A stretch of DNA of 64,000 nt, taken from contig JACDTU010000038.1 of assembly GCA_022376465.1 (NCBI GenBank), positions 18,132 to 82,131 on the forward strand, in the 5' to 3' direction. Both the position numbers and the translations under genes were made by a program. The DNA is from Cubamyces lactineus. Lineage: Eukaryota; Basidiomycota; Agaricomycetes; Polyporales; Polyporaceae. Numbering within the stretch: the stretch's first letter is position 1; each line of letters begins with the position of its first letter. Below the pieces are notes generated by a model. The model made no database searches and was not told the origin of the DNA. It worked only from the letters and a program-made list of their open reading frames with translations. This document shows positions 22,052 to 64,000 of this stretch, piece after piece.

Positions 22052-22909
22052 GGCTAGGTGGAAGGGAGGAGAGTGAAACAAGACGCGAGTCTAATGAGGA
22101 GCGCCTTCGTATGTAGTCGGCTGGAGAGGAGAAGGTGTGAGGGAGGTACGATGAGACATTGTATGAATGGTTGTGTAGCGACAGTCTCACCGGAAGAGAT
22201 GGTGGGCGCGTCGTGTCAAGGAGTTGAGTCGAGGGAAGCTGATGACTGGAGCTCGATCGAGGTTGTTTCGCTCTGGGGCGGTGTAGCGGCATGGGCGGCG
22301 GTGAGATGAGCGAGCGCGCGTCCCAAACAAGTGAAGGAGGTGTGCATCAGGAACGACGACTGGGCCTGCTATGCTGGTGGTGTGGTATACGCGGATCCAG
22401 GCATTGGCAAGCTGCAGTGCATAGCAACTTGAAGAGATATCCGTCTTCCTTACTCCGGGCCGGCCATCCGCTCCCTGTGTGCCTCGCCCCTGTCGTCTTC
22501 ACGTCCAGTTGCATGAGCATACGTCGTCCTCGAGCACACAACACAAAAAAGAGCGCGCGTCGTTTCTACAACACCACGTTCTCTAGCACGACTAGAAAGA
22601 CGACTCCAAGACGCGATCGCCGGCATTCTACCCTCCTCCGACCAGTGTGGCATGCAATCGCGTCGGCCTGCAATGAACATCAAATCCCGGTCTTCAAGTC
22701 ACCGTACCTTCCAGTCGTCTGCGGAGAGCAGAGCAAGACGAGAAGGTGTCTTATACGCCAAACCTCTGCGGGTATGCACTTTGTACATGCATAGCGTTCT
22801 TTCGATCCACGGACGACGACGTCAAGCCGGCATTCTGACGAGCAATGGACCGGCGTTCAAAAGCTGCGCCTCGCCGATCCTTTCCGCCGCTCCTCGCCGT
22901 CCTCCACGC
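22052..22909. other. Intergenic, left flank of the transposon
   Basis: Promoter region of the minus-strand phosphatase, then sequence with no recognised gene up to the transposon insertion point. Confidence 0.4.
22906..22909. repeat. Left target-site duplication (ACGC)
   Basis: ACGC immediately precedes the left TIR; the same four bases follow the right end at 29841-29844. Confidence 0.65.
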
Positions 22910-23474
22910 TACGGTTGCCGAGCAGGATCAGGTCAAGTTCCAGCGACGAACGACGAACGACGAGCAACATCGATATCGATCCGCCGCGCACGGAACCTGT
23001 TCCGCGCTCTTTGGCGCCAAGTCCAGCGTCATGGGGTACGACAACTTCAACGCCAGGTAGCTCAATTAGTGTACGTGCCATCTGCCTCGCTGGACTCACC
23101 GTAGATTAACTCGAGTTTCTGCCTTACAACCTATGAGATGCATATTGAAGCTGTCAGGACATAGATGACTCCGCGCTGCCACCCCCAATGTGGAAGTGCT
23201 AACGCCCGTGAGCGCTTACAACAGCGCCGACTGAGGTTTGCCTCGGAGTGTAATTACGGTCAGGCTCCGCACCAAATTAGTTTTGCTGAGATAGAACGGG
23301 CATAAGAAAGGGCTTTAGATGAATATAAGGTCTTTGGTATGCCCCCGCGCCTGCCGACAATTCAAGTGACAGTAAGGACTATTGAGAGATAAGTGACACG
23401 ATAAGTGACACAATGTCACTAAGTGGTGACAGCCAGTGCTAGCGAAGTTCACGTAGCTCTGCATGCCCTCCCTA
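22910..23474 (+). repeat. Left terminal inverted repeat
   Basis: About 565 bp that recur as reverse complement at 29051-29613. Near the inner end (about 23366-23440) there is a cluster of GTGACA/TGTCAC motifs, including two tandem AAGTGACAC units and an inverted TGTCACT. This is a plausible transposase-binding or regulatory block. Open frames crossing the TIR are coincidental, since they occur at both ends. Confidence 0.9.
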
Positions 23475-24131
23475 CGCTGATAGTTACCTGCCTGTGCAAC
23501 TGTTGATACCTAGCTTCTCGAGGTTAGGGGAAACTAATGGGGAATAGGAAAAAGTAGCATTCAGTCTCATGAGAATACTGAGGGTAACGGCCCTATGTGA
23601 CATTGGCATAGGACGTGGTTTCAGGGTTTTCGCAATGCTTGACCGTGGACAGGCACAAATCAAGCGCCCAACATGTCCGTAAGGTATTCGGCCCATAGCT
23701 CTTCAGGCTTCTCACAGTAAGGGCTACAGTTTGGTGAATAGACTGTATAATGCATCTAATGTGATAGCCTCTATTAATCCTGAACCGCGATGTAACCAGT
23801 GAACATCGGAGGGCCTGTCGGTTATGCCTCTTTTGGGCGCCTGTTTACTTGCTCTTGACCCGAGGCACATAATGCATTACGGTACAGGCTTCTCATAGCA
23901 ACTGTCAATACTTAGGCTGTAGGTCAAATGGTATATTTCCTACTTGATTCTGAAGTCATCTTGATCCGCACTGAGAATGGTGAACATAGAGAGGCATCAC
24001 GGTGATACATCTTAGTAAGCGCTCACGCGCGTTATCTCCACCCTTTACTTCGCTGAATGCTCTGTACGTTGCCTTGAGTCCTAGCTCTACACAAGCAGCC
24101 TTGTCCTAGTACTGTGCTTCTCTGCAGCCTG
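23475..24131. other. Non-coding leader inside the transposon
   Basis: AT-richer sequence between the left TIR and the integrase start; no gene seen. A GTAAGCGCTCACGCGCGTTA stretch near 24014 echoes the inverted GTGAGCGCTTAC sequence within the TIR (about 23208). Confidence 0.45.
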
Positions 24132-25844
24132 ATGGATTGTAACATGCCTTGCGAACTTGAAGCCCTACTAGGAGAATCGCACCACCTCAATGACTCTGCT
24201 CCCGACTCTGTCCCCTCAGCCCAAGCAGAAGGCAGCAAAAATCCAGCCTATAACAGGAACCCTCAGGGACGCAACCAGCACCGTGAATGCCGTAAGCAAT
24301 GGGAGCGTTTGCTCAGTGATGCAGTACCCTTATTCTTCACTCAGCTAGCAAGGACGATCCGCGCGTTGAGGCAGCCCTCCGGGACTATCAAAGGCGCAAC
24401 ATCAGTGACAAGGAGCTCATCCGAGAGTTATTAGAAAAGGAATATGGTATCAAAATGTCGTAAGTACACCTGGTCATTCCTCGGCTGTCTTCGAAAACGA
24501 CTCATATTTGAGATTGGCCTGGCAGAACTGCTACTATTGTACGGCGGCGCAAGCAGTACGGAATTCAAGCAAGCGGTGCTACAACCAGAAACATGCCAGT
24601 GACACAAAAGCGTCAACTCATCTTGGACCAGATGGCGAAGCACCCCACACGCGGTGTGGGCCCGCGGCGAATCAAGGAGGCAATAGCTGCAGATACTGGC
24701 TACCAGCTCACCCGGTATGTTGTCCTTTGATCCTTCGATGTTGCCTGTCCAAGGGGACTGAGATGCAGATGCCCCGCAGCGACTACATATCTCAAGAGAT
24801 GCACTCACTCGATGGCGAGGGCTTTCAGCTCCGCCATCCAAGGACCAAGAAGAAACATCGTGTCGCTCTGGTAGTTCTTGGGCCAGACTATGAATGGAGT
24901 TGTGATGGACACGACAAGCTGGCTAGCATTGGTTTTCCGATATGGGGGATTCGGGACGTCTGGAGCGGGAAATGGCTTGGTCTCTGGGTTGTGCCTAACA
25001 ACCGTCTGAAGGTTGTCGTGGCGTATCTCTACCTCAGCCTTGTGAGGGAGCTAGGTGGTAAGTGGACGCGCATGTATAGATATCCAGCCTTGATACTTAT
25101 GCAGTGGATGCATTTTAGGGATGCCTGTACAGACAACTACAGACCGAGGCAGCGAAACAAGCTCCGTATATGCATTTGCCAGCGCTCTGAGGTACGTCTT
25201 GTACCGCGCTTAGTATGTGGCTGCCAACTAATCATCTCATGATATGTAATAGAGAGGAGTTCTCGCCTGATCTCCCAGTGAGGAAATTAGCTGCTCATCG
25301 CTTCCTGCCTAGCATCGAGAATACCACAATCGAGCGTGGCTGGCTCCGACTTCGTTTAGAGTGGGGTGATGATGTGAAGGTGTTTTGGGAGGCTGGAAAG
25401 GACATATACGATGAGATGAATGAGACGCACTAGTACGTCCGCTGCAGCCCTCAGCTATCTGTTCAGGACCGCTGATCCCCTGCTAGCAACCTTGTACATT
25501 GGCTCTGGCCAAAGCTCATCCAGAAGGAGCTTGACAAGCTGCGCCAAGATTTGAACGATCATAAACCCCGGAAGGACCGCAGTAAGCTCCTTCCCACAGG
25601 TGTTGCTCCAAATGTCTTATATACGCTCTATGAGCGGTATGGTGCTGAGGACCGTGGTTTGCAGCCAGTCGACCGTGAGCTCATAGCGCAGTTGATGGAC
25701 AATCTTGGCGGTGACGACTTGATACGGTTTGTACCTCGTGAATACGAGCAGCACATTCAGCAGATTTTTGACCACATCGGTGCACCGGAGCTGAGTTTCC
25801 ATAATATTTGGGATGTATTCACGCAGATGCTATCTATGATATAA
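24132..25844 (+). CDS. DDE integrase/transposase (rve-like integrase core)
   Basis: Spliced transposase of the element. Exon 1 from ATG 24132 (MDCNMPCELEALLGESHHL) is joined over a 38-bp intron (24307-24344) to a helix-turn-helix-like region (EALLRDYQRRN-type helices, KELIRELLEKEYGIKMS). A RRRKQYGIQASGATTRN segment and a second helical DNA-binding region (TRGVGPRRIKEAIAADTGY) follow. The catalytic core has the three acids in order: D in YEWSCDGHDKLASIG (about 24890-24930), D in TTTDRGSETSS (about 25132-25165, after an acceptor at 25119), and E in ENTTIERGWLRLR (about 25318-25355). The C-terminal region (VHWLWPKLIQKELDKLRQDL and onward) ends at TAA 25842-25844. This core type is widespread in basidiomycete genomes. 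The full DDE and the intact frame argue for an active enzyme. It is convergent with the alpha-kinase gene, only 38 bp away. Confidence 0.8.
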
Positions 25845-25882
25845 TGTTGTATAGATGTGTCTACGTCTACGATACCTATGGT

Positions 25883-28789
25883 TTACTTCACATGAGATGA
25901 CGGGCTAGATGACAGTAGCTCATCTACTTCAATATCCTTATCATCATCGCTAGCCAAAGACTCATCATCAGATATTCCAGCGATGAGATTCCGCACAGCC
26001 ATTGGGTTGGACTTCTGCACCCCACGGGTGCGTCGGGCGACTGGTGGAGTTTTGGGACCCGTACGGACCGCTGGCATCTTCTCTGCCTGTACAAGCCCAA
26101 GGCGGCGGCATAGCTCATTGCACTTGTGCTCTTCTCGGAACTTGTCAATCTCCACCTTCCCCTTGTCCCAATAGCCTGTCGGGCCTGTCGCCCAGTCGCT
26201 TTTGCGTTTTGCAAAGTGTCAGTTGTTGATCACTGTATGTTACGTTGAAAGTAAACACTTACGTGGTATGCGCCTGCGGATCAAATAGTATGACCTCCTT
26301 GCCCCGCACAAAACCTGAGAAGACGGCGGTGTGGTCAGATTGTTGTATTAACCGTCAGCTTCACGACACTTACCTTGTAGATCAACAAGGACGCAGGTGT
26401 AGTTAGAGTCAACAAGGACATGGTGGGCGAATGCATCGACTACACGCCCGATGGGGGTGGTGTTCTTCCCCGTTTCATGAGCACCGGAGAACTTCATCTC
26501 CACGTAACCATCTGCCTTACGAATGAGGCGAGTGGCAAGGAAGGTATCGTAGATGAGCAGGCGCTCGTCAACTTCGTTAGGACTGGGAACAAAACCCAAG
26601 TCCCACTGATTGACCAACCGACCCAAGAAAGCGCCATCATGATTGAACCGGATGTCTGTTCGGAAGCAATGGTCATATGTCAGCTAGTCCGAGAAGCGCA
26701 TGCAGCTGAAGTGCGTAGCTTACTGGCTACGTCAGCCAGGTCCACGTTATAGGCTTCCGCTCGTTGATGAAAGGTTGTAGCAAAATACTGCGCGATCGCC
26801 AGAAGCTTTAACTCATCAAGCAGATAGCGAGCGTTGCCTTCGTCATCAGCAGCATAAGACCCCAATGGCGCCATCTGCAGCAAAGCGTAGGGGTCGCCGT
26901 TGTACATTCCCTATTGTGCGGCCAAAGATGAATATAGGGCAAGACGTCAGGCCATATGAGACAAGTACCTACCATGAATGCGTATTTGGACCCGCCTCCA
27001 CCCAGCCAACCTTCACAGGGCTCCGATTTTCCCTTAAATTTTTGCCATCCCTGTCCAACGAGCACGTCTTCCTCAGCGCTGCTCTCAACAACGCTAGGGA
27101 CACCTGTATTATCCGCCACACATAGTACACGCCTGACTTTGAAAGCCGTGTATGCAGGAGGGCGGTTGATTGGTAGAGGAGGTGGGCGAAACGCGCTCAC
27201 ATAGGTTGGCCTGGCTGAGGCAAGCTTCTTCGACGTATCTGCAGAGGATACCAATCAACAACTAGTCTATTCATGTTGACAATGATTGTATGACTTACTG
27301 CCTTCACGATCAACCGCAGTATCACGTTTACGCTTACCAGAGCTACCGCTCGATGGACGCACGCTCGATCGGGAAACTCTGGTTGAGCTCTTGATACCAT
27401 TAGCCCTACGCGTCGGGGCAATCGATAGGGTGGCGAGATCGACTATCTCCTCCGCAGACTAGCTCGGATGGAGGAGTAACATATCAGGTACTATACAATC
27501 GCTTTATGTATTACTAGTAAGACTTACCTCGTCGGCATTCGGTGCAACATAGATCGATACATTGAGACGAATGAGACGCTCCTTCGCATCAGTCTGCGAG
27601 AGCGTCCCATCAGCCTGCAGCCCCTTAAAAACATCGCCTATTGATTTAAGGCTCGCAGCTTGAACGTCGATGTGATATCCAGTAGCGGTGCCTCGATGTC
27701 CTTTAGCGATGCTATACACCGCTTGTTCCCTACAACCAGGTGCGCTCAGTCATGCGAAGCGAGGTGAAAGGGAGAGCTCTATATAACCTCACTTACCGCT
27801 TGAAATCTCCCTCTGTGATTGGTAACTCCTTGCGTGATGCTACAGGTTGCGCAGTATATATCTCACGCACCGCAGACAATGCCCTGTCAAAGACAATGTC
27901 TGCGCTGTCCGTCGCCTTCATTGTTAAGCGACGGCAGGTCTTGCTGATCTAGTGATTACGAGTTAGCTCATACAGAACACTGAGACACCAAGCAAAGACT
28001 ATACCGCTCGCCCAGGGTCTCCGGCACGTTTTGCATAAAAGCCATACACCTCGACGTACACGACCTCGACGTTCCGGAGGTCTCTCAATGCTGCTTGCTT
28101 ACTTTTGATATCTGCCACGCGCTGCGATTTCTGTGACTCTGCTGGTGTTCTTGTCTGCCTGAGACGCAGGTCGGTCGCGGCCTTATCGTACTGCTGCATG
28201 CTAGTAGAGACACGATCTAGCCGCAACTGCAAGGCATCTGTTGACAATGAATATAATACCAGGCTGAGATGTAAGCCAGAACATACCTGTCATAGCATTC
28301 TGACTCTTCGCTGCCTCCCCTGGACCTGCTCCTACTACACGTGAGGATTGAACTCCCGAGTCTTTCTTCGCCGCTGTACAGGCCCCGCATACGTCCCCTT
28401 TCAAAAAAGGGTATACGCAGCTACATTTTCGGCATTGGGGCATATTCTAGGGCAGGTTAAATAGATGGACAATAATACAGGAATAGTTCATGATACTCAC
28501 CGTAGTTCGCACTTGGTCAGCTTCGCTCACAGCTGAAACTAACTTGATGCACCGCCCACATATCTCACTATCCAGGGCCTCAAAGCATCCACCGCAGTGG
28601 AGACACTGTGGTATGTCCTGAGTTTACATTAGATATAGCTGAATGGAGATGGACGCAAAGGGTAGCTACCTCTGGCCCGGGCTGTTCTGAGCCTGCACTT
28701 GATGAATCCAGCCGCAACGTGCAGCGCCCGCAGTATGTGGACTTGAGATGTTCGAAGATTTGACCACAGCCTTGGCAGCAGGCTGGCAT
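25883..28789 (-). CDS. Triple zinc-ribbon alpha-type protein kinase, transposon cargo
   Basis: Minus-strand gene with about ten exons. It starts MPACCQGCGQIFEHLKS at 28789. Three tandem Cys4 modules come first: CQGCG...CGRC, then CLHCG...CGRC (exon about 28617-28502), then CRKCS...CGAC (exon about 28445 onward). A helical linker (about 28250-27700) and a basic Ser-rich stretch (about 27460-27280) follow. The alpha-kinase region has a glycine-rich GGGGSKYAF segment and GMYNGDPYALLQM. Further on come LLIYDTFLATRLI, MKFSGAHETGKNTTP, HHVLVDSNYTCVLVDLQG, EVILFDPQAHT and the zinc-binding EEHKCNELCRRLGL. The acidic tail ends at TAA 25883-25885. Alpha-kinases (MHCK/eEF2K type) phosphorylate Ser/Thr. 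The position normally holding the ATP-binding Lys appears to be Leu (YALLQM), so activity is uncertain. It has no known role in transposition; it may regulate host or transposase. Confidence 0.75.
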
Positions 28790-29050
28790 AATGTGAAGAC
28801 CAGGTTTTTGTGAGGTAGGGAGATAGCTGTATGTACGAGCAAGAGAGAGTGCTGGTGTCGGAGGAGGGGCTCATGATTTTTTTCGGAATTTTGGGGATTT
28901 ATTGACGCAAACCAGCGAGCTGGCTCTGCTAAGCCAACTCAAGCCTACATCCTGCTCTCCGAGTACTCACTCACAACCTCAAACTGTGAAGTAGGATCAA
29001 TAGTTCATTCTCTCCCTCTTTCAGGCTGCATTGGACGAGGGAGGTGGACG

Positions 29051-29613
29051 AGGGAGGGCATGCAGAGCTACGTGAACTTCGCTAGCACTGGCTGTCACCA
29101 CTTAGTGACATTGTGTCACTTATCGTGTCACTTATCTCTCAATAGTCCTTACTGTCACTTGAATTGTCGGCAGGCGCGGGGGCATACCAAAGACCTTATA
29201 TTCATCTAAAGCCCTTTCTTATGCCCGTTCTATCTCAGCAAAACTAATTTGGTGCGGAGCCTGACCGTAATTACACTCCGAGGCAAACCTCAGTCGGCGC
29301 TGTTGTAAGCGCTCACGGGCGTTAGCACTTCCACATTGGGGGTGGCAGCGCGGAGTCATCTATGTCCTGACAGCTTCAATATGCATCTCATAGGTTGTAA
29401 GGCAGAAACTCGAGTTAATCTACGGTGAGTCCAGCGAGGCAGATGGCACGTACACTAATTGAGCTACCTGGCGTTGAAGTTGTCGTACCCCATGACGCTG
29501 GACTTGGCGCCAAAGAGCGCGGAACAGGTTCCGTGCGCGGCGGATCGATATCGATGTTGCTCGTCGTTCGTCGTTCGTCGCTGGAACTTGACCTGATCCT
29601 GCTCGGCAACCGT
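29051..29613 (-). repeat. Right terminal inverted repeat
   Basis: Reverse complement of the left TIR, ending inside at the AGGGAGGGCA boundary (29051-29060). Its outer 226 bp are repeated once more directly outside. Confidence 0.9.
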
Positions 29614-29839
29614 TCATAGGTTGTAAGGCAGAAACTCGAGTTAATCTACGGTGAGTCCAGCGAGGCAGATGGCACGTACACTAATTGAGCTACCTGGCGT
29701 TGAAGTTGTCGTACCCCATGACGCTGGACTTGGCGCCAAAGAGCGCGGAACAGGTTCCGTGCGCGGCGGATCGATATCGATGTTGCTCGTCGTTCGTCGT
29801 TCGTCGCTGGAACTTGACCTGATCCTGCTCGGCAACCGT
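29388..29839. repeat. 226-bp tandem duplication of the right transposon end
   Basis: 29388-29613 and 29614-29839 appear identical, both beginning TCATAGGTTG and ending GGCAACCGT. The target-site duplication lies next to the outer copy. Confidence 0.9.
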
Positions 29840-29840
29840 A

Positions 29841-29844
29841 ACGC
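29841..29844. repeat. Right target-site duplication (ACGC)
   Basis: ACGC directly following the right end of the element, matching 22906-22909. Confidence 0.65.
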
Positions 29845-55970: not shown

Positions 55971-56640
55971 ATTTATAGGGAAAAAAAGAGGGGGGTAAGG
56001 GTTAGGCCTTCGGCTAAGGCCTTAGGGCTTTGTTCCCGGACCCCGAAAAGTGCCAATTTTGGCATGTCATGCGGGGTCTACCACGCGGGCTACCACCTTT
56101 GTGGTAGCCCGCGCCACTGCGGGGATTTATAGGGAAAAAAAGAGGGGGGTAAGGGTTAGGCCTTCGGCTAAGGCCTTAGGGCTTTGTTCCCGGACCCCGA
56201 AAAGTGCCAATTTTGGCATGTCATGCGGGGTCTACCACGCGGGCTAGCACAAAGGTGGTAGCCCGCGCCACTGCGGGGATGTGTGCCCAGTGTGCGCGGT
56301 CTAGCACAAAGGTGGTAGACCGCGCATGGCATGGCGCACTCGCGCGGTCTACCACCTTTGTGGTAGCCCGCGCCACTGCGGGAGATGTGTGCCCGGTGTG
56401 CGCGGTCTAGCACAAAGGTGGTAGACCGCGCATGGCATGGCGCACTCGCGCGGTCTACCACCTTTGTGGTAGCCCGCGCCACTGGGGGATGTGTGCCCGG
56501 TGCGCGGGCTAGCACAAAGGTGGTAGACCGCGCAAGATGTGGCCAACTCGCGCGGGCTACCACCTTTGTGGTAGCCCGCGCCACTGCGGGAGATGTGTGC
56601 CCGGTGTGCGCGGTCTAGCACAAAGGTGGTAGACCGCGGA
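55971..56640. repeat. Hairpin satellite array 1
   Basis: Two tandem 154-bp units (from 55971 and 56125), each starting ATTTATAGGGAAAAAAAGAG and holding further hairpins (AGGCCTTCGGCTAAGGCCTT). About three to four units of ~105 bp follow. Each of these has imperfect palindromes of the form GCGGTCTA-loop-TAGACCGC, with loops built from ACCACCTTTGTGGT and GCACAAAGGTGG in both orientations. Confidence 0.85.
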
Positions 56641-57339
56641 TGGTATGGCGATGCCTCTGCCCGATATGCTGCTGAACACAGGGACATATCTGGCACTGCT
56701 GGAACATCTCTCCCCTGGGTCAGTCTCCTATGACCCTCGCCCAGAGGATGTCCGCTTGTGCTGTCTCCCGCCTATGTGATAAACTGCACCATTGTGAATA
56801 TGTGTGCTCGATGTGCGCGGTCTACCACATGGAATGGGAGACCGCGCATGGCATGACGCACTCATGTGGGCTACCTATGTGGTAGATTGCGCAACAAAAA
56901 CACCCAGTCCTACCAGAATGTCAGTGCATTATAGAGTGCGAGACTGGCTGCAGCTCAGAGTCAAACATATACTCTCAGCAGTCCGGGACATAGAACAATG
57001 TATCAAAGTGCGATTGCGGTACATTATGTGTGCCCAGGATGTATATAGCACATTGTGCAACAGCCAGTAGCTCTGAATACGAGGAGGGAGTCCTTACGTC
57101 CATCTGCACAGCCTCACATGCTAAACCGAGCAATGCAGACTCCAAAAACGACTGGGCGTCACCTGCGCGGTGTGGATTATTGCCGCTATTGATATTGCAA
57201 TGAGGCGATCATGTGGAAGGACATTGTCGCTTAGTGCAGGCGAAGGGGCGGCGGAGGCGAAGGGGACGATGCCAGCATTTTTGCGGGGGTCTCTGCCCAT
57301 CGCTACACCGACGCACGCCTGCGCAAGAGTCCATTCCCC
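56641..57339. other. Degenerate satellite edge and intergenic sequence
   Basis: Contains one decayed hairpin unit (about 56815-56895, GCGGTCTACCACATGG...). Then AT-richer sequence without a gene up to the ATG at 57340. Confidence 0.45.
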
Positions 57340-58193: not shown

Positions 58194-58740
58194 CGCGTGG
58201 AGGGTGTGCGGTGTAGCATGCGGGTGGTAGACTGCGTTCGCGAGGAAATATATATCGACGGTGAGCGGTGTAGCATGTAGGTGGTAGACCACGTTCGCGA
58301 GGAAATATATATCAACGGTGAGCGGTGTAGCATGTAGGTGGTACACCGCGTTCGCGGGGCACATGCGACAGTGTGCGGTGTAGCATGTAGGTGGTACACC
58401 GCGTTCGCGAGGAAATATATATCAACGGTGAGCGGTGTAGCATGTAGGTGGTACACCGCGTTCGCGCGGGCAGATGCGACAAGTGTGCGGTGTAGCATGT
58501 AGGTGGTACACCGCGTTCGCGAGGAAATATATATCAACGGTGAGCGGTGTAGCATGTAGGTGGTACACCGCGTTCGCGCGGGCACATGCGACAAGTGTGC
58601 GGTGTAGCATGTAGGTGGTACACCGCGTTCGCGAGGAAATATATATCAACGGTGAGCGGTGTAGCATGTAGGTGGTACACCGCGTTCGCGCGGGCAGATG
58701 CGACAAGTGTGCGGTGTAGCATGTAGGTGGTACACCGCTC
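58194..58740. repeat. Hairpin satellite array 2
   Basis: About ten units of 55-60 bp. Each contains GCGGTGTAGCATGTAGGTGG then TACACCGC, a palindrome with 8-bp arms GCGGTGTA/TACACCGC. Two spacer types alternate: GAGGAAATATATATCAACGG and GCGGGCACATGCGACAAGTG. Confidence 0.9.
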
Positions 58741-59150: not shown

Positions 59151-62100
59151 ATGCCACCGAAGCCGAGGCCGGCAGTAAGTTGTTTGATTGTTACATTGAA
59201 GAGCAGTCGCGCTGATCTATGGACACAACACATCTTCAGGGCGCGAGCGCGCAAGACGAGGGTGCGAACGCGGCGACCGTGACCGCGACGAACGCGAAGG
59301 GTGCTGCACCGAAGAAGGCTGCGGGCAAGGGCGCGAAGGGGAAGGGCAAGGGGAAGGGCAAGGGCGATGCGGAGGATGAGGAGAACGCGGACCGTAGCGG
59401 CGTGGAGGAGGCGGATGATGATGAGGAGGGTGGAAAGGTGAGTGCCCTGCGCGGTTGAGCGTGATCGCGCGGACGCGCTGCTGATCAGCATTGGTCGCGC
59501 TAGGGGAAGAAGAAGGGCGGCGCGAAGAAGGGCAAGACCAAGCAGCTCTTCATTGCGGAGTCGAACTTCAAGGGCTTCAAGCTCACGTCGAACCTGGAAC
59601 AGCAGGACTTTGCGGAGGTGCACAAGGAGCGGAGCGTGCAGCTGTCTGTGAAGTGTCGGCTGGGGTACGCGTTCATGGACCTCGTCCACCCTCCGGACGT
59701 TCAGCTGCACTTTGGCCGCTACAACAACCGTCCGCTCGACCAGGCGCGCGTGAAGGAGCTCGCGAAGGGCTTCAGAGAGCAAGGGATTGCGCCGTGGCAG
59801 GATCCGATCCCGATCATGGCGCCACGCGCGTGGATCGACAAGGCGTCGCTCGAGGTGCAGTGGATGGAGGGACGGTCGGAGAAGATGGTTGCGTTCACGG
59901 AGGCGGCGAAGGGTGAGTGGATCGACGTTCTGGGCGGACACCACCGGCGCGCGGCGTACGTCGAGTACGTGCATTCGCTTCAACAGGACCTCGAGGCCGC
60001 GCAGAAGAATGTCACGAAGCTGCACAGCAACAAGAGGCTCGACGCGAACGTGAAGCAGGAGGAGCTGAAGAAGTGGGAGAAGGAAGTGGCGAACCTGCGC
60101 GCGAAGGTGCAGGAGCCGACGGTGTGGGAGGTGGTGGTCTACGCGATGGGTGAGTGATCTTTGTGTGCGCGGGGGGGGCGGGGGACGGACGCTCGCTGAC
60201 TATGAGTACGCCTGCAGAGGATGTTACGGACGAGCTGGGTGCGTTCCTGTCGCGCAACGACGAGACTCCCCACCACCGCGAGACGGACATGGAGAAGTTC
60301 TGGCGGTACCTCGCGGTGATTCGGCAGTTGCGCACGAGGGAGGCGCCGACGGTGGCCATTGGGAGCTCGGAGTGGACGCGGTTCGTCGCGAAGCGGATTC
60401 CTGTGACGATTGGGCAGAAGGGGTTTGGGACGCTCTACAACGAGCCGCGCAGCTGGGACTTCATCAACCTGATTGTGAAGTTGGTGCCGCTGCGTCCGAT
60501 GTTTCCGATCGAGGTTCTGCGACGTCGTGTGCGGTCGGTCGACGGGGTGCATGCGGTGTCACCGGGGGAGAAGCCTGGGAAGCGCAAAGGGAAGGCTGTG
60601 GACACGCGCGCGCCGGACACCGCGGGAGGGGTGAGTGCGAACGATTGTTGGGTGTGCGCGGATGGACGCTGACTTGGTGGACGCAGCTGTGGGTGGATCT
60701 GTTGGAGCCGATCATTGAGGACATGGTCTTCATTGCGACGTCTGGGAAGTGGTCGGAGGACAACGTCGTCATGCGGAACTACAAGATCTTCCTTCGGGCG
60801 TCGACGGGTCAGCGGCGGAGCAAGGACGCGGGCGCAAAGGTGGAGGCGTACAAGTTGTACTTGAAGAAGTACCTTGAGGAGGGCGAGGTCGACCAGGCGG
60901 TGTGGCCGACGTACTTGCTGGAGAAACTCGACGAAGTGTACGTGCAGCGCGTCCAGCCTGCGATGGAGTCGTTCATGAACCGATCGACGGACGTGTGGGC
61001 GAAGGCGATGGAGGCGTACTGGAAGGACGCGGACGCGGTGATGGAGATGGTGTGGAGCGGCGGGGTGCGGTATGGATCGTGGCGACCGGAGACGGGCGAG
61101 ACGATGCGTGGCGCGCCCGGGCGACTTTCGTGGGTGAAGCAATGTCGCTGTGCCGGGATGCGGTTCGACATTCCGCTGGTCAGTGCGACGTTTGTGCAAG
61201 ACCTGTATGCGACGTTTGCGGAGGTGTCCTATGGGATTCAATGGGTACGTGGCATATACTGGTTATTGTGAGGACACGCGGGCGATCTACCTGGAAGGTG
61301 GTACACCGCGCTGGGGGAGAGGAGGGTCGCGGTCTCGCGGTCTACCACCTTCGTTGTACACCGCGCTGGGGGGAGGAGGAGGGGTGCGGTCGCGCGGTGT
61401 AGCAGGAAGGTGGTAGACCGCGCTGGGGGAGGAGGAGAGGTGCGGTCGCGCGGTGTAGCAGGAAGGTGGTAGACCGCGCTGGGGGGAGGAGGAGAGGTGC
61501 GGTCGCGCGGTCTACCACCTTCCTGGTAGACCGCGCTGGGGGAGGAGGAGAGGTGCGGTCGCGCGGTCTACCACCTTCCTGGTAGACCGCGCTGGGGGAG
61601 GAGGAGAGGTGCGGTCGCGCGGTGTAGCAGGAAGGTGGTACACCGCGCTGGGGGAGGAGGAGAGGTGCGGTCGCGCGGTGTAGCAGGAAGGTGGTACACC
61701 GCGCTGGGGGAGGAGGAGGGGTGTGGTCGCTCGGTCTACCACCTTCCTGGTAGACCGCGCTGGGGGAGGAGGAGAGGTGCGGTCGCGCGGTCTACCACCT
61801 TCCTGGTAGACCGCGTTCTCATTGATATTTTCCCTCTGCTTTCCGTCGACGTTGCGCGATCAAATACTGATATTGTCCCTCCGTCATTAGATCAGTCGCC
61901 AGGTCGACCCAATGGTCGACAGGATCGCGCTGTCGAACTACCGCTGGGTGTTCGACCATACCTCCAACCTCCGCGAGTTCTTCATGAACAGCCACCTCAC
62001 CGCGTACTCTTCGGAGCAGCCCAACAACGTATGTACATGCGCTTGTCGAACGTTCGTTACACAGAAAGCTGACGTTGATCGCCTATCTGCAGTTCTACCT

Positions 62101-63186: not shown

Positions 63187-63860
63187 GGGGAGCCCGACGC
63201 GATCGAGCGTTAGCGAGATTTGCGGCGGGCGACGACGTTCGAGAGGGTGTGTCGAAAGACTTGGGCCAACTGGGGCTGGTGAGGAACACCAACCCGCCCA
63301 GTTTCGACCTTTTAGCCGGTCTCTTCAGGGCCTATACAGTTCTTTACGATTAGGTTCAAACCCTATCCCAGCGGCGTATCACCGCTTGCACGAGGGACAG
63401 GTTTACGAATTCAGCTGACGCGGCGGCGGCCGAAGGCCGCCGTCCTTACCTTCTGCCGATGGAGACGGCTGAAAGCGTAAGACTGATTTGACTCTAAACT
63501 TTAACTCGCGGAGCGCCTTACCCCGGCGCTCCGGATGACACAATTAGTATGTGTCACTCGGACCGAGTAAACTAGCGCGCGATCTAATTAAAGACCGGCG
63601 CTTGCATACCCCTTAAAGGTTACCTTTTATTCCAGATCACGTGACCATGAGACGCCCTTTAGGCGCTAAAGACTTCCCCGGATAGGATCCGGACCCACCA
63701 TGGGGGTAGCTAGGCGCCCCTTTCGGGCGCTTCGCCGGGACACGTGCCCCGCCTGTTACCGGTCAGGGTGTTCGGTTCACGTGCCCAGTCAATAGGCGCC
63801 ATGGGTTGTCCCACGGTGTTGTGACCTTAGAATAAACCCTCGAAGTAAACCAGCGCCTGT
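63181..63860 (-). mobile_element. PLE pLTR copy B2, full-length solo copy
   Basis: About 680 bp from GTTAGGGAGGGGAGCCCGAC to AACCAGCGCCTGTTAGGG, with telomeric repeats on both sides. It matches B1 with few differences (for example GAGGAACACC versus GAAGAACACC) and extends ~70 bp further. Confidence 0.85.
63263..63332 (-). ncRNA. Predicted hammerhead ribozyme, copy B2
   Basis: Same core and stems as B1. Predicted cleavage between 63268 and 63267. Confidence 0.7.
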
Positions 63861-64000
63861 TAGGGTTAGGTTAGGGTTCGGGTTAGGGTTTGGGTTAGAG
63901 TTAGGGTTAGGGTTAGGGTTAGGGTTAGGGTTAGGGTTAGGGTTAGGGTTAGGGTTAGGGTTAGGGTTAGGGTTAGGGTTAGGGTTAGGTTTAGGGTAGG
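63861..64000 (+). repeat. Terminal telomere, (TTAGGG)n
   Basis: About twenty TTAGGG units with a few variants at the proximal side (TTCGGG, TTTGGG, TTAGAG), running to the end of the window with the G-rich strand 5'->3' outward. This marks the right chromosome end. Confidence 0.97.

Follow-up and report, generated by a model that had tools for sequence, protein, structure and literature searches.

Why should a fungal DNA transposon carry an alpha-kinase gene, and is such a gene a chance passenger or a standing part of the element? The question is raised by a 6,931-bp element at positions 22910-29840 of the 64,000-nucleotide stretch of Cubamyces lactineus DNA analyzed in the present study (contig JACDTU010000038.1 of assembly GCA_022376465.1; hereafter, the window), which is built like a DNA transposon and holds two open genes, one for a DDE integrase-type transposase and the other for a protein of the alpha-kinase fold. 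The explanation that we favor, and consider probable, is that it is an intact-looking, presumably recently inserted IS3EU-like DNA transposon, the second gene of which encodes a standing accessory protein of alpha-kinase fold.

A first-pass annotation, made from the letters of the DNA, described apparently identical terminal inverted repeats (TIRs) of approximately 565 bp, a flanking 4-bp ACGC repeat, and two spliced convergent genes, including an alpha-kinase gene, all of which were borne out. The inverted arms are identical at 563 of 563 positions and, with the outer T and A counted, the element begins with TACGG and ends with CCGTA between the two ACGC copies. That annotation overlooked an exact tandem doubling, as assembled, of the terminal 226 bp on the right, possibly an assembly artefact. 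The G+C content per kb is 0.49-0.53 in most of the element versus mostly 0.55-0.63 in the flanks. Since the arms are identical and both genes are fully open, the sequence suggests that the insertion is probably recent.

Both gene models were built from hand-chosen GT..AG junctions, which delimit all 6 introns of the transposase gene and all 11 of the kinase gene, and the public C. lactineus models P0008 (446 aa) and P0001 (618 aa) sit letter for letter inside them; the kinase model equals P0001 extended by 130 N-terminal residues that hold three CxxC ribbons. The stop codons of the two genes are 38 bp apart. The transposase matched the Pfam family rva_4, "Integrase core domain", with E 6.6e-9 for the hand-joined core and 2.1e-8 for P0008. 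A homologue search gave 141 matches, 120 of which were listed, and the named ones among these 120 are, to judge by their names, Agaricomycetes. Each of the 32 listed integrases that were aligned also matched rva_4 (E <= 0.05). The candidate catalytic residues are D193, D252, and E295 in P0008 numbering, with D193 and E295 invariant (32/32) and D252 conserved in at least 90%. The earlier assignment to a DDE integrase-like protein thus stood, whereas its catalytic glutamate did not: the likely residue is the E of IERGW (E295), and the E of SIENTT, chosen previously, is not among the invariant columns. The AF2 model (pLDDT 85.5) matched the integrases of foamy virus and Rous sarcoma virus as well as TnsB, with a best E of 1.7e-5, and weak matches to the IS3 transposase model were obtained for 6 of the 32 relatives and to HTH_21 for 5. 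P0008, which has three cysteines in total, contains no CxxC and hence no HHCC motif. The transposase query found no match among plasmids, and its single sequence match among solved structures (E 0.96) was dismissed as meaningless.

Regarding the second gene, its product matched PF02816 (Alpha_kinase) with E 2.9e-15, its predicted fold is that of an alpha-kinase, and the profile was matched by all 11 kinases compared (E <= 0.01). This set, own copy included, was drawn from two protein searches with 7 and 9 matches; the query alignment of the second consisted of our model and five of the six other kinases from the first (P0002 was left out), and that search did not recover P0005 or P0006. From the N terminus, the protein comprises CxxC ribbons, helices, a ubiquitin-like fold, a KRKR stretch, and the alpha-kinase domain; CxxC pairs lie near the N terminus in five of the ten relatives and not there in the other five models, some of which start later. 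D494, Q496, D508, and H481 are kept in 11/11 kinases and H538/C540/C544 in 9/9, this second count leaving aside Ganoderma P0130 and Trametes coccinea P0131, whose models end before the zinc cysteines. We take D494, Q496, and D508 to be the catalytic Asp, Gln, and Asp of the C-lobe and the His and Cys residues to be the zinc site, and both groups are retained among relatives only 28-58% identical to the present copy. The position of the invariant N-lobe lysine (Lys645 of MHCK-A), on a strand assigned from model topology, is occupied by L, F, or A in 10/10 kinases that have the segment (it is missing from the Trametes sanguinea model P0003), and no invariant lysine was found between the P-loop and the long helix in the aligned clade. 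Because this lysine appears to be absent across the clade, plain phosphorylation is less certain, and we consider nucleotide binding or an altered kinase activity more likely than standard ATP phosphotransfer.

Whether relatives of the kinase lie with the integrase was named in the first-pass annotation as one test able to refute its view, and they seem to do so: 8 of the 11 kinases have a same-species integrase match on a contig of equal size among the 120 listed. The pairs are from Cubamyces itself, Trametes versicolor, Cerioporus, Collybia nuda, Cerrena, Pilatotrama, Ganoderma adspersum, and Trametes coccinea, and locus tags are consecutive in three of them; without our own pair, the count is 7 of 10. 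Over the eight pairs, distances among the kinases follow those among the integrases (Mantel r 0.68, permutation p 0.003), and the kinase diverges faster (27-55% identity versus 52-76% for the integrase). This co-divergence fits a single traveling unit, as had been proposed. Since 8 of the 11 kinases pair with an integrase on an equal-sized contig, three with consecutive tags, the kinase looks, from these comparisons, like something other than a one-off capture.

Several points weigh against the favored explanation. The case was built on sequence comparisons and predicted structures, and co-location was judged from equal contig sizes and locus tags. The kinases of Trametes sanguinea, Psilocybe, and Antrodiella (3/11) have no same-contig integrase among those listed, a kinase partner was detected for only 8 of the 120 listed integrase matches, with kinase searches that were insensitive, and the co-divergence may mirror host descent only. 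Regarding the transposase, TM-scores by query length are low, 0.16-0.31, for the 19 fold matches with E <= 0.001, the scan that gave the IS3 matches also gave IS630 in 2/32 and arginine-repressor models in 1/32, and no NCBIfam model recognized P0008. The lysine loss depends on the strand assignment, the sequence alignment with the second kinase found in the genome is ambiguous at this point, and several kinase relatives have an unaligned lysine 1-4 residues before YA. Moreover, the target duplications are 4 bp here versus 6 bp in published IS3EU.

In the genome (36.3 Mb), no further full copy came up with the integrase, the kinase, the TIR, or DNA of the 5' interior as query, leaving one full copy in total, and no copy of the left flank of the element was found elsewhere. 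Two 1,177-bp elements (C43:1034658-1035834 and C3:899933-901109) have 57-bp ends 89% like those of this element, terminate in TACGG..CCATA and TACGG..CCGTA, and have CTTG on either side. They align together with their flanks over 1,745 bp at 99% and, because these flanks are common to both, represent a single insertion event. The 4-bp duplications therefore come from two events (ACGC and CTTG), neither of which a 6-bp duplication fits. The first-pass annotation had named copies with the same TIRs and no kinase as evidence against its view; the two short elements are such copies, but match neither the transposase nor the kinase protein, and thus lack the integrase as well. The 20-bp end pattern of the element, with up to three mismatches, was found at nine places in the genome, five of them exact, versus one for the reversed control. 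At the rva_4 locus on contig C17 (L044), a lone 20-bp end with one mismatch (C17:68932-68951; L044 7432-7451) is surrounded by an 89-bp inverted repeat of 81% identity; no partner end was found there, and this locus is possibly a relict of a related element. Its match to the proteins of the element was weak (E 2e-4), and those of the rva_4 loci on C23 and C5 (L042 and L043) were at chance level.

Only two alpha-kinase loci were detected in the genome by PF02816 (E <= 0.1), that of the element and C40:41220-41552, which does not support the suggestion that the element explains part of an alpha-kinase expansion. The C40 kinase is very different from that of the element; its piece alone scores 14.4 bits in Pfam, under the cut-off of 21.3, and 24.2 bits, above it, when the whole genome is scanned, and a profile of the present kinase clade gave no useful score for it. 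Because it carries KICAKQ after the P-loop, it probably retains the usual lysine. An integrase-like gene (C40:45134 onward) is situated approximately 3.6 kb away in divergent orientation, a post-hoc observation on one pair; no second copy of that gene was found in the genome, and 30 kb of this region showed no inverted repeats spanning the pair. The coordinates of the features described are collected in Table 1.

Table 1. Features of the element and of the second kinase/integrase-like pair (window positions unless a locus is given)
Feature	Position	Strand	Details
Target-site duplication, left	22906..22909	.	ACGC
TIR, left	22910..23473	+	First letters TACGGTTGCC; from 22911 on, 563/563 identical to right arm
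DDE integrase-type transposase gene	24132..25844	+	7 exons, 450 aa; Pfam rva_4, AF2 model
Transposase exons	24132-24291, 24345-24459, 24526-24714, 24780-25057, 25119-25191, 25253-25432, 25487-25844	+	
Alpha-kinase-fold gene	25883..28789	-	12 exons, 748 aa; PF02816
Kinase exons, first six	28789-28670, 28617-28501, 28446-28287, 28237-28005, 27948-27797, 27729-27528	-	
Kinase exons, last six	27458-27299, 27238-26973, 26910-26724, 26655-26374, 26314-26263, 26198-25883	-	
TIR, right	29051..29613	-	Inner complete copy without final A
Second tandem copy of last 226 bp of right end	29614..29839	-	Identical to 29388-29613
Terminal A of element	29840..29840	-	..CCGTA
Target-site duplication, right	29841..29844	.	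ACGC
Alpha-kinase / integrase-like pair on C40	L045 4449-5577 and 8634-9648	- and +	

The contig ends in a GTTAGG telomere-type repeat array (window 63859-63997), and the element is subtelomeric in that this array is only approximately 34 kb away. Tandem arrays also occur at 55971-56650, 58203-58738, and 61293-61815, and their units measure 154, 106/208, 57/112, and 56/168 bp; GTGGTA..CCGCG-type motifs are common to several of the arrays. Two nested, diverged inverted-repeat pairs with arms 8-10 kb apart (37483-37608/47258-47383 at 84% and 38288-38480/46230-46422 at 78%) are perhaps an older mobile element.

As for how the element may work, the integrase-type transposase would bind the TIRs and move the element by DDE chemistry, while the kinase-fold gene would belong to the element family permanently and not as chance cargo, and its product would be a nuclear accessory protein. 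The CxxC ribbons and ubiquitin-like part may target DNA, chromatin, or protein partners, and the targets of the alpha-kinase-fold domain may be the transposase, host chromatin, or host silencing factors. The first-pass annotation had likewise suggested that the kinase could regulate transposition, splicing, or host silencing. We favor a role in aid of the element, exerted at the transposase or at chromatin, over that of cargo benefiting the host. A bolder version, which we regard as rather unlikely, is that, for a transposon clade of Agaricomycetes, an alpha-kinase-fold protein without the lysine is indispensable to transposition, as an atypical nucleotide-using or scaffold factor; the partnership of alpha-kinase and integrase may predate the clade, considering that the C40 kinase is close to an integrase-like gene for which no second copy turned up.

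Among the alternatives, one that overlaps with the favored explanation is that the kinase is retained as cargo because it counters silencing or is directed at the host, and is unneeded for the transposition reaction, a possibility to be taken seriously while falling short of probable. PMC12730594 proposes that TET/JBP genes carried by transposons of this kind help them evade methylation-based silencing, and the CxxC ribbons, KRKR stretch, and ubiquitin-like fold could act at chromatin. However, the kinase is present here with no TET/JBP gene found: Pfam profiles run over five leftover or antisense open reading frames of the element gave nothing above the cut-off (one DUF7611 match reached 14.4 bits versus a cut-off of 27), and the gap between the stop codons is as short as stated above. 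A direct partner would also be expected to diverge along with the transposase.

It is quite unlikely that the element is a Ginger-type rather than an IS3EU-like transposon. According to PMC10045372, target duplications are 4 bp for Ginger1, as here, and 4 or 5 bp for Ginger2, whereas IS3EU has TA..TA termini, a duplication that is usually 6 bp, and no HHCC motif in its transposase. The ends of the present element, the missing CxxC/HHCC, the weak IS3 links among the transposase relatives, and the alpha-kinase partner all point to IS3EU, and we call the element IS3EU-like rather than a plain member because the usual 6-bp duplication fails. That the kinase-fold protein is a decaying, functionless pseudokinase would agree with the apparent lysine loss, but is very improbable considering a reading frame open through 12 exons and the C-lobe and zinc residues kept among such divergent relatives. 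Least probable of all is the one-off capture of a host alpha-kinase gene by this single copy, with which the lone full copy and the many listed integrases without a detected kinase agree, and against which stand the paired relatives in several genera, the alpha-kinase of TET+ IS3EU as described in PMC12730594, and the great difference from the C40 kinase, the second of the two alpha-kinases detected in the genome.

The host of this element belongs to the Polyporales, versus rusts and Tuber for the published TET+ IS3EU. A barely documented pairing of transposase and alpha-kinase is thus apparently extended to wood-decay and agaric mushrooms, here with no TET/JBP gene found and with the kinase fold retained over wide divergence. 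If the kinase partner is needed, this would be a eukaryotic transposon that uses a kinase-fold cofactor. Furthermore, part of the many alpha-kinase genes in some basidiomycetes could be transposon genes; the family is reported to be highly expanded in rusts (PMC4469406).

The pairing itself is already in print, so that the statement in the first-pass annotation that no transposon family with an alpha-kinase was known is incorrect; the element is real, and neither unique nor new in kind. According to Kojima (2025; PMC12730594), the transposase and alpha-kinase genes of all TET+ IS3EU families have opposite orientations and enclose a TET/JBP gene, and the families of rusts have 6-bp duplications and TAYGG..CCRTA ends. 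Beyond that paper, none of the titles and abstract openings in partial listings of the open-licence literature, a scope that Repbase lies outside, linked an alpha-kinase to a transposon. The present element resembles the TET+ IS3EU (IS3EU/GingerRoot) families of rusts and Tuber in its ends, in TIRs longer than 30 bp, and in the opposite orientation of its alpha-kinase and transposase genes (PMC12730594), and IS3EU in the lack of an HHCC motif before the transposase core (PMC10045372); unlike in the TET+ families of PMC12730594, no TET/JBP gene was found between its two genes. With Ginger1 and Ginger2 it shares the DDE integrase-type transposase and the 4-bp duplication (PMC10045372). It differs from them in its alpha-kinase partner and in a transposase without the HHCC zinc motif. 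The kinase resembles the alpha-kinases of PF02816 (eEF2K, MHCK-A, TRPM7-type ChaK, and ALPK1) in fold, the basic residue of the P-loop, the D/Q/D residues of the C-lobe, and the zinc residues, and is unlike them in the apparently missing N-lobe lysine, in its N-terminal CxxC ribbons and ubiquitin-like fold, and in being encoded by a transposon. Ginger transposons, for their part, have an HHCC motif and other ends. Lastly, similar to KDZ and other fungal transposons with TET/JBP genes, this is a fungal DNA transposon with an accessory enzyme-type gene, in which a kinase fold takes the place of the dioxygenase and the transposase is a different one.
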